Below are positions 1 to 57,948 of a stretch of 57,948 bases of DNA, piece by piece. The DNA comes from Candidatus Gastranaerophilales bacterium (lineage in GTDB: Bacteria; Cyanobacteriota; Vampirovibrionia; Gastranaerophilales; Gastranaerophilaceae). Both the position numbers and the translations under genes were made by a program. The stretch is taken from NCBI GenBank assembly GCA_944324405.1, contig CALUWF010000008.1, positions 1 through 57,948 of the forward strand, in the 5' to 3' direction. The notes under the pieces are model-generated. The model ran no database searches and had not been told where the DNA came from. It was given only the letters and a program-made list of their open reading frames with translations. Positions within the stretch are counted from its first letter, which is position 1. Each line of letters begins with the position of its first letter.

Positions 1-171
1 AATTATCAAACCGTTGGTAGCGCCGCGCTAATACCTATGTCGCAAGCTACGCTCACTCAGTGCGCTAACGCCCCAAACCCAAAGAAAACTATTCAATTAT
101 CAAACCGTTGGTAGCGCCGCGCTAATACCTATGTCGCAAGCTACGCTCACTCAGTGCGCTAACGCCCCAAA
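1..171. repeat. 77-bp direct repeat, two copies (1-77 and 95-171)
   Basis: The two copies are identical and spaced 94 bp apart. Each contains the palindrome-like TAGCGCcGCGCTA. Read on the minus strand, the unit carries GCG-TTAGC, AGTGAGC and GCTTGCGA blocks in the same order as the dispersed elements at 45.8 and 57.7 kb, so it looks like a shorter relative in inverted orientation. The rest of 172-240 shows no gene. Confidence 0.85.
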
Positions 172-241
172 GCGTTATAACCCAATTTAACTACAAATCT
201 TATCAAAAAACAACCCGAAACATTACGAAATACTTTACATT

Positions 242-33282: not shown

Positions 33283-33471
33283 AAACCCGGGTTTTCCTTT
33301 TTAAAAAGTTCTTTTTAATCGACATTTTATACAAAAGCAGTAAATTTTGCCACTTTGTAAACCATATTAATGCCTTGCTCCGTTACAAATCTTTACTTCA
33401 CGTTAAAAAAATAAGAGTTTTTTGATAATATAAACCGGTAAGGATAGATTATAAGATAGGTGAGTGCAAAA

Positions 33472-35670
33472 GTGTTGAATTTAATTAACCCCGCAGCAAA
33501 AGAATGCAATTTTTTATCAGACTTTGACATCAATTTACAATTTGCAAAATTAAAAGAGATTTACGGAATAAAAGACATTGACCCCGGGCGAAGGGAATAT
33601 TTATCAAAAACAATTGAAAAATACGGATATTTACCTTATGCGCACTATAAAACACTTGAAGAGCTGAGCACGGGAGAAATTATTTTTACTTTTTGTGAAA
33701 TTTTAAAACACGAAGGCACATACGACGGAGAAAAATTTATTAATTTTAAAAACCCTTCGGCACTTTCAAGAAGAAAAGTAAAGCATTCAAACTGGTTTAA
33801 AAAAGAAGGACACAATATAAAGCTCATCTCTTTAGCCGGCCTTGGAAGCGACCCAAACCGCGCGGGCAAATTTATTGACTGGCTGGCCGAGCTTATAACA
33901 CTTGATTGCGGCAATAAAGAACTTAATATCATGCCTGCAACATTATATTTAATACCTTTCCACCCAAGAGAATTTGAATGCGCCTATCTTCCGAAGTCTT
34001 CGGATGTTTCAAAAAATCTTGAAGATGAAAAAATCGCAAAATTTTTAGGATTAAATGCAAAAAACCAGGTGAAATTCTTTATAACGCTTGCCCAGCTTGC
34101 GGGACATCCTGTAATTTATGATGTACTGCCGCAGACGGGAAGATTTTCAAAGATTATTTTAACTCATCCGTATTGCGCACGCTGGATTGATGTTAAAAGT
34201 CTTGATAATCAGATTAAAAATTTTGAAAAAGCTTTAAAAGCCAACGGTACAAAGACTTATGAAGAGGATTTAAAAGAATTCAAAATTTTAATTTCGTATA
34301 AAATGTCTTTCAAAGACAAACAAGAAGAGCTTCAGAAGCGGGTTGAAAATATAATCGAAAAAGTTAACCGCAAAAAGCCCAGGGAAGAAGATGACATTGT
34401 AAAACATGATGAAATTATTAAAGCACTTATAGAAGAGGGGCTCTGGACAATGCCGGGGGGTGCTTGGTGTTCTGCGGGCGTGCCGATTTACGATAAAATG
34501 CACAAGTCGGGCGAATATCCCACTTTTAAACACTACAATTTTAAAGGCGAAGATGTCACGCATTTTGCAAATCTCGACTGCCAGACGCCTTATTACTTTG
34601 TTTATTTTGAAAAAAACAGATACAACACGAAAGTTATGGACTTTTTTGTTGATTATATGCAAAATCTTCAAAAGGAATATAACTTTGACGGATTTAGAGT
34701 TGATCACATCGACCACATTGTTGATGAAGTTTCGCAAAAAGATAATATGCCCATAAGCTACAGGGCGCCTTATAAAGTATTGGGCAAAATGAATGCAAAA
34801 CTCAAAAAACACATTCCCTATTTTGCAACTCTTGCCGAATATATGCTCTGGGACGGGTATTTTAAGGAATATCACAGAGATATGCACTTTGATCTTTTGT
34901 GGGGCGATGACATTGTAAGCCAATACCAAAAAACGCCGGAACAGATAATAAATGATAATTTACGCCTTGAAACATACAACACAAGAGCGCCCAAGCTAAA
35001 TCCTTTATCTATATTAAAAGCTTATAACAATCAGGACGGCGAATTTCGCGATATTGACCAGTATCCGGGACAATTAGGCGAAGCAGGCGCGCTTTTTAAA
35101 TGGTTTAAGATAAAGTTTTTGCCCGGCGGAAAATTTGCCCAACGCCCGACACTTTATGTCGACGGAGATGAAAGCTTTACAAAAACAGGCATAGAGCGCA
35201 TTATAGGCAATGAAGTTTCAATGATTAGAAACACAAACTGGAATTTTTACGAAAAATTCAACGCTCTTAATTATTTTGCACAGCACAGCAGACTATTGAG
35301 CTATGGCAAAGCAATTTTGCATATTCAGGATGAAGACGGCTTTTGCTGCTGGGAAGTTATCGGCGATAAAAATTCAAAAGAAAGCCTTTTTATTGTCGCA
35401 AATTATCTCTCGCCGACAGAAAAAGTTCAAGTCACTGACAGCTCGAATAATACAAGACGTATGACAAGAAAAGGCAAGGCTGTTTTAAATAAAACCATAA
35501 AACTCAAAGACAATAAAAAATTGAGCGCTTTTTATGATTTTAGAAACGATGATATGCAAAAATGCCAATTCGTCGAAATTCCTATGCAGGAAGAAATAAC
35601 AGGCTCAATTACCTTTAATACCCTGCAACCTGGCGAATTCAAAGTGTATAAAATGCGTAAGCCGGAGTGA
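33472..35670 (+). CDS. Divergent GH13 alpha-amylase-superfamily protein (732 aa)
   Basis: Barrel signatures are recognisable: YDVLPQTGR near residue 214 (region I), FDGFRVDHIDH with D411 (region II, nucleophile position) and TLAEYM with E456 (region III, acid/base position). The usual HD pair of region IV is not evident; the best-aligned stretch reads RNTNWNFY. A helical insert (about 245-310) sits after region I. Substrate is unresolved; a glucan- or disaccharide-acting role beside the debranching enzyme at 0.3 kb is plausible. The GTG at 33472 is preferred because AGGTGAG lies 7 nt upstream; an in-frame GTG at 33460 overlaps that site. The last codons (MRKPE, stop) are contributed by a repeat element. 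Confidence 0.75.
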   Translation: MLNLINPAAKECNFLSDFDINLQFAKLKEIYGIKDIDPGRREYLSKTIEKYGYLPYAHYKTLEELSTGEIIFTFCEILKHEGTYDGEKFINFKNPSALSRRKVKHSNWFKKEGHNIKLISLAGLGSDPNRAGKFIDWLAELITLDCGNKELNIMPATLYLIPFHPREFECAYLPKSSDVSKNLEDEKIAKFLGLNAKNQVKFFITLAQLAGHPVIYDVLPQTGRFSKIILTHPYCARWIDVKSLDNQIKNFEKALKANGTKTYEEDLKEFKILISYKMSFKDKQEELQKRVENIIEKVNRKKPREEDDIVKHDEIIKALIEEGLWTMPGGAWCSAGVPIYDKMHKSGEYPTFKHYNFKGEDVTHFANLDCQTPYYFVYFEKNRYNTKVMDFFVDYMQNLQKEYNFDGFRVDHIDHIVDEVSQKDNMPISYRAPYKVLGKMNAKLKKHIPYFATLAEYMLWDGYFKEYHRDMHFDLLWGDDIVSQYQKTPEQIINDNLRLETYNTRAPKLNPLSILKAYNNQDGEFRDIDQYPGQLGEAGALFKWFKIKFLPGGKFAQRPTLYVDGDESFTKTGIERIIGNEVSMIRNTNWNFYEKFNALNYFAQHSRLLSYGKAILHIQDEDGFCCWEVIGDKNSKESLFIVANYLSPTEKVQVTDSSNNTRRMTRKGKAVLNKTIKLKDNKKLSAFYDFRNDDMQKCQFVEIPMQEEITGSITFNTLQPGEFKVYKMRKPE

Positions 35671-35786
35671 AGTTTTAGCGTCGCGATGAGCGACCTAAAA
35701 CGAACTGTTGATGACCGCCGTTGCGAATTGAGCGTAAGCGAAATGAGCGGAGCAATCTTTGATTGCACAGGCGGAATGCGTAAGTT
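35653..35786 (+). repeat. Modular hairpin repeat, variant C
   Basis: Begins ATGCGTAAGCCGGAGTGA (which includes the stop codon of the upstream gene). Hairpin 1 spans 35672-35701: GTTTTAG, a bulged C, GTCGC, loop GATGA, GCGAC, CTAAAAC. Further on GCAATC/GATTGC forms another short hairpin, followed by CACAGG and a new ATGCGTAAG at the end. Same layout as the elements at 45.8 and 57.7 kb, with different stem sequences. Confidence 0.7.
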
Positions 35787-35788
35787 TA

Positions 35789-35821
35789 GTAGGTTGGGGT
35801 TTCTACCCCAACACAAAGTGT
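35789..35821. repeat. REP-like 33-bp repeat, copy 1
   Basis: GTAG followed by the perfect 8-bp hairpin GTTGGGGT-ttct-ACCCCAAC and a conserved 3' tail. Identical to 36159-36191. A GTAG tetranucleotide before a hairpin is the signature of REP elements mobilised by RAYT enzymes; similar GGTTGGG hairpins are common in cyanobacteria. Confidence 0.85.
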
Positions 35822-36158
35822 CCAAAAAATAAACTTAGTATTACAGCTTGACGACAATATTGCACTTGCGGCGTTAAAAGGAGAAATTTAAATAATAAAT
35901 TGTCATCCTGAACTCGTTTCAGGATCTTATTAACTGCGTATGTATAAATTTAGCGCATAATTTAACTTCGGAAAATACATTAAGTTTTTTGTGCAATGTT
36001 GTATGTCATCATGCCCCACTGTTAAGACCCTGAAATAAATTCAGGGTGACAGCTGCACATTAAAAGTATACCTGCGTCACCGTTAAGATGCTGTGCTTTA
36101 ATCGGGCAGGCTCACACAAAATTTTTAAGATGTCAAAATACCAGGTAGCATGTAGCTT
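35822..36158. repeat. Gene-free spacer with inverted 29-bp repeats (35901-35929 and 36023-36051)
   Basis: The two arms, TGTCATCCTGAA...TCTTA and its inverted partner, agree at 24 of 29 positions. Each arm is itself a hairpin (ATCCTGAA/TTCAGGAT, and ACCCTGAA/TTCAGGGT in the partner orientation), with one compensatory base-pair change. The 93 bp between them are AT-rich and non-coding. This looks like a MITE or a pair of short palindromic repeats. No gene was found elsewhere in this interval. Confidence 0.65.
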
Positions 36159-36191
36159 GTAGGTTGGGGTTTCTACCCCAACACAAAGTGT
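36159..36191. repeat. REP-like 33-bp repeat, copy 2
   Basis: Identical to 35789-35821, 370 bp away, in the same orientation. It abuts the variant A element that follows. Confidence 0.85.
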
Positions 36192-36195
36192 ATAA

Positions 36196-36410
36196 GAAGC
36201 GAAGCTTGAAGGCTAGTGCGACTGCACAGCCTGAAAGCAAGCGACCGACAGGATGTGAGAAATTAGACGGCTTGTCGAAGGACAAGGCGGCAATTTCGAC
36301 ACTGGACTATGAAGCGAAGCTTGAAGGCCAGTGCGACTGCACAGCCTGAAAGCAAGCGACCGACAGGATGTGAGCACAGGCACAGCGGTTCGTCACTGGT
36401 GGGCCTGTGC
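36196..36410 (+). repeat. Modular hairpin repeats, variant A (two adjacent units)
   Basis: Unit 1 (36196-36309) and unit 2 (36311-36410) share about 64 nearly identical bases that fold into one long hairpin (GCTTG..GGCT..GTGC-gact-GCAC..AGCC..CAAGC). They then differ. Unit 1 has CTTGTC-GAAG-GACAAG (36271-36286); unit 2 has GCACAGGC paired with GCCTGTGC (36374-36381/36403-36410). Unit 1 ends GACACTGGACTA like the copies at 45.8 and 57.9 kb. Confidence 0.8.
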
Positions 36411-36429
36411 GACGCTAAGAAAAAACAAT

Positions 36430-45514: not shown

Positions 45515-45703
45515 ATGGCAAGAGTACTTATTTCAATGCCCGAAAAATTTTTAGACGAAATCGACCAAGTTGCAGATACTGAAAATCGCTCCAGAAGCGA
45601 ACTTATCCGCGAAGCATTGAGAACTTACATTCAACGTACAAAAATCAGAGAAAGTTCATTTGCAAGCAAAAACGCAGCAATCCTTGAAGCACTCCTGGAT
45701 TAA
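45515..45703 (+). CDS. Ribbon-helix-helix (CopG/MetJ-type) regulator (62 aa)
   Basis: Residues 1-45 fit the RHH DNA-binding fold: a beta strand (RVLISMP), helix A (KFLDEIDQVADTENRS) and helix B (RSELIREALRTYIQR). No toxin gene follows, so it is not an obvious antitoxin. The C-terminal 20 residues may be a dimer extension. AAGGAGA precedes the ATG. The stop codon is 2 nt before a modular repeat. Autoregulation through the inverted repeat just upstream is a reasonable inference. Confidence 0.85.
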   Translation: MARVLISMPEKFLDEIDQVADTENRSRSELIREALRTYIQRTKIRESSFASKNAAILEALLD

Positions 45704-45705
45704 AA

Positions 45706-45995
45706 GCGTAAGCCGGAGTGAAGCGAAGCTTGAAGGCTAGTGCGACTGCACAGCCTGAAAGCAAGCGACCGACAGGATGTGAGAGCGTGACGGTTTTGCG
45801 AAGGCAAAAGCGGACAGCTCGACACTGGACTAAAAAAATGCGCAAGCCAGAGTGAGCCTTAAGGGCTTGCGATGAGCAAGACCGCAAGGCGCAACTATCG
45901 ATAGGCGACGTAGGATAATCGAGCGCATTGGCGCGAGATACCCACAGGAGCCACGCGTAAGCCGGAGTGAGCCTTAAGGGCTTGCGATGAGCAAA
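45706..45995 (+). repeat. Cluster of modular hairpin repeats (one variant A, two variant B units)
   Basis: Variant A occupies 45706-45832: leader GCGTAAGCCGGAGTG, long hairpin 45728-45766, then TTTTGC-GAAG-GCAAAA (45794-45809). Its 113-bp core is identical to 57836-57948. Variant B follows (45838-45952): leader, hairpin with GATGA loop (45856-45890), palindrome CTATCGATAG, GTAG and a second hairpin built on GCGC-attg-GCGC. A truncated B unit (45953-45995) ends the cluster. Confidence 0.85.
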
Positions 45996-46054
45996 CAAAA
46001 AAATAGGCAGGTAAATTAAAGCCAATATTACGGCTGCTAAACAGAGGAGGTTTA

Positions 46055-46083
46055 AAAAAAGCGGACATAATGTCCGCTTTTTT
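46055..46083. terminator. Strong bidirectional terminator
   Basis: A 13-bp stem including AGCGGACA/TGTCCGCT with a 3-nt loop, flanked by A and T runs. It closes transcription past the RHH gene and repeats. Confidence 0.85.
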
Positions 46084-46160
46084 AGTGCGCCGCATTATTT
46101 TTACAAACCCGCACAGCCCCGCCTAAAAATCCGACAAAAATACCTCAATAAATTTCAAAA

Positions 46161-56919: not shown

Positions 56920-57732
56920 ATGGGTATAATGGATGGCAAAAAGGGTATTATTTTTGGTGTTTCAAACAAACACGGCATTGCAAATGCAATAGCGGAACAA
57001 ATCTACTCGGCCGGCGGCGAGCTTGCTTTTACATACGCTAATGAAGCCATGGAAAAACGCGTAAGACCCATAGCGCAGGAAATGAACGCTAAAATCTGCC
57101 TTGAATGTGACGTTACAAAAGAAGAAGATGTCAAAAAAGTATTTGATGAGTATCAAAAAACATACGACAGGCTTGATTTTGTCATCCACGCCGTTGCTTT
57201 TGCAAATAAAGAAGACCTTTTAGGCGATTTTTATACCACAAGCCGCGAAGGCTGGGATCTTGCAATGCATGTAAGCGCCTATTCGCTTTTAACTCTTACA
57301 AAATATGCTAAACCTCAAATGGAAAAAACAGGCGGCGGCTCAATTATTGCACTTACATATCTCGGCTCGACACATGCCGTCGCAAATTACAATATTATGG
57401 GCGTTGCAAAAGCTGCTCTTGAATCTTCAATGAGATATATTGCAATGGATTTAGGAAAATACAACATCCGCTGCAACTGCTTATCGGCAGGCCCGGTTAA
57501 AACCCTTGCCGCAAAAGGCATCGGCGGTTTTGATAAAATGCTTAAATTTAATTCGCTTAAAGCTCCGCTTAATCGCACTCCGGCTCTTGAAGATGTCGGC
57601 AAAGCAGGTTTGTATTTAGTGTCCGACCTCTCATCAGGCGTAACAGGACAGGTACATTTCGTAGACTGCGGCGCTTCAAGCGTGTTTGCCTCCCTCGACG
57701 AAATGGAATGCGTAAGCCGGGGTGAGCCTTAA
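56920..57732 (+). CDS. fabI: Enoyl-[acyl-carrier-protein] reductase (270 aa)
   Basis: NAD(P)H enzyme completing each fatty-acid elongation cycle. Short-chain dehydrogenase fold with the FabI-type active site: Y147, Y157 and K164 (Y-x6-K, as YNIMGVAK), and the cofactor-binding start GIIFGVSNKHGIANAIA. The last seven codons (CVSRGEP, stop) are repeat-element sequence, so the natural C-terminus has been replaced or extended. AAGGAGA lies 6 nt before the ATG. No other fatty-acid genes are adjacent. Confidence 0.93.
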   Translation: MGIMDGKKGIIFGVSNKHGIANAIAEQIYSAGGELAFTYANEAMEKRVRPIAQEMNAKICLECDVTKEEDVKKVFDEYQKTYDRLDFVIHAVAFANKEDLLGDFYTTSREGWDLAMHVSAYSLLTLTKYAKPQMEKTGGGSIIALTYLGSTHAVANYNIMGVAKAALESSMRYIAMDLGKYNIRCNCLSAGPVKTLAAKGIGGFDKMLKFNSLKAPLNRTPALEDVGKAGLYLVSDLSSGVTGQVHFVDCGASSVFASLDEMECVSRGEP

Positions 57733-57819
57733 GGGCTTGCGATGAGCAAGACCGCAAGGCTCAACTATCGATAGGCGACGTAGGAGCGCAAGGGCAAAGC
57801 CCTGAGCACCACAGGAGCA
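57708..57819 (+). repeat. Modular hairpin repeat, variant B, overlapping the fabI 3' end
   Basis: Leader ATGCGTAAGCCGGGGTGA supplies the last fabI codons. Hairpin 1 (57726-57760) is identical to that at 45856-45890 with the GATGA loop. CTATCGATAG and GTAG (57780-57783) follow. Hairpin 2 differs from the 45.9-kb copy: AGGGC-aaa-GCCCT. Then CACAGGAG and the next leader. Confidence 0.85.
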
Positions 57820-57948
57820 ATGCGTAAGCCAGAGTGAAGCGAAGCTTGAAGGCTAGTGCGACTGCACAGCCTGAAAGCAAGCGACCGACAGGATGTGAGA
57901 GCGTGACGGTTTTGCGAAGGCAAAAGCGGACAGCTCGACACTGGACTA
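57820..57948 (+). repeat. Modular hairpin repeat, variant A
   Basis: Leader ATGCGTAAGCCAGAGTG and then a 113-bp core (57836-57948) identical to 45720-45832, including TTTTGC-GAAG-GCAAAA (57910-57925). It runs to the window end, so its right edge is not seen. Confidence 0.85.

Follow-up and report, generated by a model that had tools for sequence, protein, structure and literature searches.

Three-hairpin extragenic repeats adjoining stop codons: an apparently undescribed family in the Gastranaerophilales

Introduction

REPs lie at the ends of open reading frames (ORFs), can supply the stop codon themselves, and have a stop-proximal precedent in Escherichia coli (PMC3733652, PMC12306157). The repeats reported here resemble REP/BIME elements in being palindromic and intergenic, in sitting close behind ORFs, in being able to provide a stop codon, and in forming mosaic arrays. 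However, REP/BIME elements are single palindromes of 20 to 40 bp, usually present in high copy and in opposite orientations, whereas the present units comprise three hairpins over about 100 to 140 nt, follow one another in direct tandem order, number 1 to 15 (B-type units) per genome of the genus, and have no linked RAYT gene. The GTAG/CGTC tag at one end of REPs is also missing; GTAG lies inside the paired frame of hairpin H2 and is not an unpaired tag. REP-type stop-proximal control consists of ribosome pausing or lowered expression at distances of up to 15 nt from the stop, a range that the position of the units fits.

BOX elements of Streptococcus pneumoniae are modular (boxA, boxB, and boxC), intergenic, and structured, and by this description the units are alike; BOX elements are not known to show a one-orientation lock to stop codons. 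Integron attC sites share imperfect hairpins with a variable tip, a position directly behind ORFs, and an arrangement in arrays, but no R boxes were seen by eye in the units, and no integron integrase scored over the curated cutoff in any of 145 genomes. HEARO and other mobile RNA families in Rfam are comparable as repeated, structured, mobile RNA-like elements, but no Rfam family exceeded its gathering score in the window, and nothing fell on a unit when five loci were searched at E values up to 1. SINE-like retroelements are similar in being noncoding and in their target duplications of variable length, A-rich linker, and capture of a host promoter (at tRNA-Tyr and tmRNA in the present case); they differ in that no reverse transcriptase was found in 6 of the 15 genomes of the genus with copies (RVT_1 matches occurred in 9 of 15). 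A literature search on repeats or RNAs of Gastranaerophilales returned nothing relevant, and the units apparently form an order-wide family of three-hairpin repeats of roughly 100 to 140 bases that has so far gone undescribed.

The host group consists of uncultured gut bacteria (Gastranaerophilales, Melainabacteria), and across this order the family offers a natural experiment on the origin of palindromic repeats and the upkeep of their pairing. Scarce G-U intermediates and inverted hairpin tips allow selection on folded RNA to be told from template switching on DNA, an open question in RNA evolution.

Results

Architecture and distribution of the units

Three hairpins make up a unit, namely, the mini-hairpin H0 (GGC-GUAA-GCC), the long H1, and a further one, H2. 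H1 comprises a closing GUGUG...ACAY, an outer stem (P2a), an inner stem (P2b) with a G-A mismatch, and a GNNGA or GNAG loop. H2 has a fixed frame (GCGACGUAGG...CCACAGGAGC), paired as GC-GA-CGUAGG ... CCACAG-GA-GC, and a variable tip that often carries a GNRA loop; an alternative frame (ACCGCCGUUGC...CACAGGCGG) is made of parts of the same kind. The invariance of the frame pieces is partly ascertained because the exact-pattern search preset two of them (GACGTAGGA and CACAGGAGC), a constraint from which the model searches were free. A-type units of the window are likewise built from this kind of parts, and their variable hairpin aligns with H1 of the covariance model (positions 15 to 62). An outer stem closing the whole unit was rejected as a general feature, as it is clear only at tmRNA and tRNA-Tyr insertions.

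The window, i.e., the whole 57,948-nt stretch analyzed, is a contig of a 1.8-Mb draft metagenome-assembled genome of the Gastranaerophilales, the order in which a pattern scan of public genomes placed its relatives. The genes, units, and terminator described in this paragraph are on the plus strand. A 736-aa ORF (33460 to 35670) has its TGA stop inside the leader of the following unit (35653 to 35776), which contains H0, H1 (GTCGC-GATGA-GCGAC), and the alternative H2 frame (GACCGCCGTTGC...CACAGGCGGAA); this unit was read directly, and its model match is weak (20.7 bits; E = 0.02). Further on are two A-type units, one at 36196 to 36309 (inner stem CTTGTC-GAAG-GACAAG at 36271) and one at 36310 to 36412, in which the variable hairpin is replaced and the tip TTCGTCA is the inverse of TGACGAA in another locus (L010). 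A 62-aa gene (45515 to 45703), termed ribbon-helix-helix-like from its sequence, ends with a TAA (45701 to 45703) immediately 5' of an array composed of an H0 leader with an A-type unit (45704 to 45835; inner stem TTTTGC-GAAG-GCAAAA at 45794 to 45809), a B-type unit (45838 to 45953; H0, H1 with CTTGC-GATGA-GCAAG, and H2 frame GCGACGTAGGA...CCACAGGAGC; 53.9 bits, E = 2e-10), and a partial third B unit (45954 to 45996), which ends behind the H1 loop and closes the array as a direct repeat of the unit's 5' part. This array sits between the stop codon and the intrinsic terminator of the gene (46054 to 46084). The FabI-like enoyl-ACP reductase gene (56920 to 57732) takes its final codons and stop from a B-type unit (57708 to 57820; 68.3 bits, E = 6.9e-14), behind which an A-type unit (57821 to 57948; inner stem TTTTGC-GAAG-GCAAAA at 57910) is cut by the contig end. 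The three A-type stems listed in an earlier sequence-only reading (at 36271, 45794, and 57910) and its two GATGA-loop stems are all present, and the common leader that it described is real, corresponding to ATGCGTAAGCCGGAGTGA, which is itself a mini-hairpin (GC-GUAA-GC).

That reading had proposed a modular repeat family, which proved to be genome-wide and larger than first reported. A covariance model made of ten copies taken from other species recovered the window units with E values down to 7e-14 and detected units in 134 of 382 relatives, spanning 34 of 140 genera. Within the genus, none of the 15 genomes lacked B-type units, the copy number per genome ranging from 1 to 15 at E <= 0.01. 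The genome of the window gave 15 BLAST matches, a lower bound of its copy number.

Position relative to stop codons

The 5' end of the units is locked to the stop codon of a co-directional upstream gene, a feature that the sequence-only reading had missed. Fifty-seven of 86 clusters start within 5 nt of the stop or overlap it, against 13.7 expected under uniform placement in the spacer; with model-found copies alone, 41 of 88 were at a stop, compared with 2 of 88 in the mirrored test. The upstream gene was on the same strand in 112 clusters and on the opposite strand in 32, and between tandem genes the unit was co-directional in 64 of 76 cases and opposed in 12. Offsets between the stop end and the unit start peak at -1 to +2 and at +8; at +8, the UAA falls within the H0 loop. 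The FliF gene ends with AAG-UUAA-CUU in one locus (L164) and AAG-UUAG-CUU in another (L174), i.e., H0 is altered on both sides while the stop stays in the loop. The lock spans all three stop codons, and the upstream genes include those for ribosomal proteins S13, S11, L3, and L2, EF-Ts, AtpD, GroEL, FliF, ribonucleotide reductase, and Mu gp36. Some dozen downstream genes begin within 7 nt, and the AGGAG of H2 would then be their ribosome-binding site. For roughly half of the clusters, no stop codon was detected at the unit; some other copies lie behind terminator T-runs, tRNA ends, or the 23S rRNA end (RNA genes recognized by reading).

Covariation of the stems

Among 115 distinct copies aligned to fit the structure, 31 of 32 base pairs showed double changes, and 90.3% of cells were paired, compared with 66.1% after shuffling and 29 to 42% with slid partners. 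An alignment not fitted to the structure gave double changes in 14 of 25 pairs. The pattern described in the sequence-only reading far exceeds chance; absent from its list was the outer part of the variable hairpin, which also co-varies (AGC...GCT versus AAATT...AATTT).

In stems P2a and P2b and the H2 tip (203 distinct copies), 2530 Watson-Crick pairs were counted along with 36 G-U pairs (1.4%) and 23 A-C mismatches, so that G-U is about as rare as A-C; tRNAs from the same loci had 629 Watson-Crick and 47 G-U pairs (7% G-U), their A-C counts not being comparable because ARAGORN prints allowed pairs only. An element under selection as RNA alone would not usually show so few G-U pairs. Comparison of copies that are 80 to 90% identical gave totals of 44 and 18 double Watson-Crick changes in two alignments, versus 4 and 4 single changes, and the changes between copies >90% identical are almost all single. 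One H2 tip occurs in both orientations (GTTTTG-GAA-CAAAAC and GTTTTG-TTC-CAAAAC), as does one A-type tip (TGACGAA and TTCGTCA).

Template switching repairs DNA palindromes and has been described for RNA genes, the paired changes being made in one step (PMC8794818). Its signature, i.e., multibase paired changes, tip inversions, and a lack of G-U intermediates, was observed here, the inversions in two cases only. Given the near absence of G-U and the inverted tips, template switching during replication probably helped create the "compensatory" changes, and covariation alone is therefore no proof of selection on RNA. The H1 loops are, however, strand-fixed, and mismatches (G-A) are conserved, neither of which is expected from template switching alone, suggesting that selection is at work as well. 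The sequence-only reading had taken compensatory change as the sign of a selected fold; together with the strand-fixed loops and conserved mismatches, the paired changes do indicate that the folded form matters, but the covariation by itself does not carry that conclusion.

Gain, loss, and target duplications

Orthologous loci with and without units revealed both gain and loss, as well as units swapped between species of one genus. The 62-aa gene has orthologs in 13 genomes of the genus, of which 10 are bare, with a spacer of about 40 nt to the terminator, and 3 carry three different arrays; where the array is absent, the same terminator stands about 40 nt past the stop. FabI orthologs have differing modules, always in the gene direction, or none.

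At tmRNA and tRNA-Tyr, the initial 12 to 16 nt of the target occur as direct copies on the flanks of the units. Five genomes of genus g7 have a unit behind tmRNA nucleotide 12, with GGGGACGTTTTG repeated at the true gene start, and most other g7 genomes have an empty tmRNA site; in genus g1, the first 14 nt of tRNA-Tyr are duplicated, together with the promoter region in one locus (L377). Behind 62 of 166 terminal units, part of the unit's own or the target's sequence is repeated over 12 to 73 nt, the control maximum being 12. Two loci (L011 and L030) have an A-type unit directly 3' of tmRNA, with CCCGCCGTCTCCAAACTTTCGAAGC repeated further on, i.e., a duplication of the tmRNA 3' end. At another tmRNA start (L345, genome G387), the promoter and 5' end are duplicated around a different, perhaps decayed, insert.

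Units also occur in Mu-like prophages, which belong to several genera. In those at L213, L229, L212, and L089, with MuA-like and gp36 genes, units stand at the stops of successive structural genes. Viral contigs gave eight matches, of which only one (L335) reads as a true unit; the others were rejected as chance matches in coding DNA.

Candidate mobilizing enzymes

The sequence-only reading had pointed to a RAYT or IS200-like gene and to a tyrosine recombinase. The RAYT link failed, Y1_Tnp being found in 1 of the 15 genomes of the genus versus repeats in 15 of 15. Tyrosine recombinases of the integron type were not found in the survey of 145 genomes cited above. Draft genomes limit such claims of absence. 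RAYT was rejected as a general cause on these grounds, as was a reverse transcriptase, RVT_1 being absent from six copy-bearing genomes; one genome (G013; 99% complete, 15 copies) has neither a Y1_Tnp nor an RVT_1 match. An integron cassette, an idea raised by the gene-unit-gene order in L229, was also discarded, since L229 proved to be a Mu-like prophage and the integrase survey was negative. The spread is thus not accounted for by a RAYT, an integron integrase, or a resident reverse transcriptase; a recombinase or a transposase of another kind could be responsible.

Discussion

We regard the family as a structured extragenic repeat of REP/BIME-like kind, placed like stop-proximal REPs but failing the tests of REP tag and linked RAYT, and with a presumed function. 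Our main reading, to which we give a probability of about 0.5, is that of a transcribed, REP-like, nonautonomous structured element at the 3' ends of transcription units, within mRNA, that has no dedicated enzyme for its spread. Copies in transcribed operons, such as those of S13, S11, L3, L2, EF-Ts, AtpD, GroEL, FliF, and Mu gp36, favor this reading. On the transcript, the strong H1 would begin about 5 to 13 nt past the stop codon, where it may slow terminating ribosomes and either shield the 3' end or tune expression of the next cistron, by analogy with stop-proximal REPs in E. coli. The AGGAG with which H2 ends would, in some operons, act as the ribosome-binding site of the next gene. The precise lock to the stops of ribosomal, chaperone, and phage genes suggests that the units may generally influence how translation terminates or the 3' ends of mRNAs. 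Spread and diversification would proceed by template switching during DNA replication: a stalled strand would copy a hairpin unit from elsewhere and return upstream, leaving direct copies of variable length, and the same process would re-pair stems in one step and sometimes invert hairpin tips, while selection would preserve the conserved loops and mismatches. Template switching by itself leaves the precise lock to all three stop codons unexplained. More tentatively, the units may exemplify a new class of enzyme-less mobile structured elements that insert at RNA ends (stops, terminators, and tRNA, rRNA, and tmRNA ends) with duplication of the target end, can turn into a small RNA by taking over a host promoter, and renew their hairpins by template switching.

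That the units are a new type of selfish single-strand DNA element, put at transcript ends by some recombinase or transposase and without host function, is possible but rather doubtful. Such an element would agree with the variable occupancy of orthologous sites, the swapping of modules, the copies carried by Mu-like prophages in several genera, the direct copies of 5' ends at tmRNA and tRNA-Tyr, and the DNA-like scarcity of G-U. Against it, there is no shared candidate gene among Y1_Tnp, integron integrase, and RVT_1, duplication lengths range widely, and a role in RNA is indicated by the strand-fixed loops and by the fixed orientation of the units to genes. A purely RNA-level regulator, either a 3'-UTR element or a coupler of translation between cistrons, that passes on with its genes and changes by ordinary compensatory mutation appears unlikely. 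Agreeing with such a regulator are the placing of the stop codon within the H0 loop, the GNRA-like and G-initial loops of the transcribed strand, the AGGAG that precedes downstream starts, and the conserved G-A mismatches, but presence differs between closely related species, G-U intermediates are nearly absent, and adjacent units with about 97% identical frames bear replaced hairpins. A canonical REP/BIME system, in which a RAYT transposase moves short palindromes in single-stranded form, is the least probable source, because the ORF-end position, the use of the repeat's own stop codon, and the one Y1_Tnp gene of the window's genome, 85 bp from a B-unit remnant, are set against 14 of 15 repeat-bearing genomes (including G013) without Y1_Tnp, a RAYT in G000 flanked by a different palindrome, and the unit length, direct tandem order, and variable direct repeats.

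The single RAYT-like Y1_Tnp gene in G000 (G000:C3:94437-94799; L043 and L014) is flanked by, and contains, the GTAG-tagged palindrome GTAGGTTGGGGTTTCTACCCCAAC. This palindrome also occurs in the window at 35789 to 35828 and 36159 to 36198, so that a classical REP family lies beside the new one. Another scattered palindrome, TGTCATCCTGAACTCGTTTCAGGATCTTA, is found around arrays (window positions 35888 to 35945, L010, and L037). At window positions 1 to 188 there is a 94-bp tandem repeat, the minus strand of which begins with GGGGCGTTAGCGCA, a sequence that looks like the 5' end of a tRNA-Ala, and continues into a short insert; this arrangement resembles the tRNA-Tyr and tmRNA duplications.
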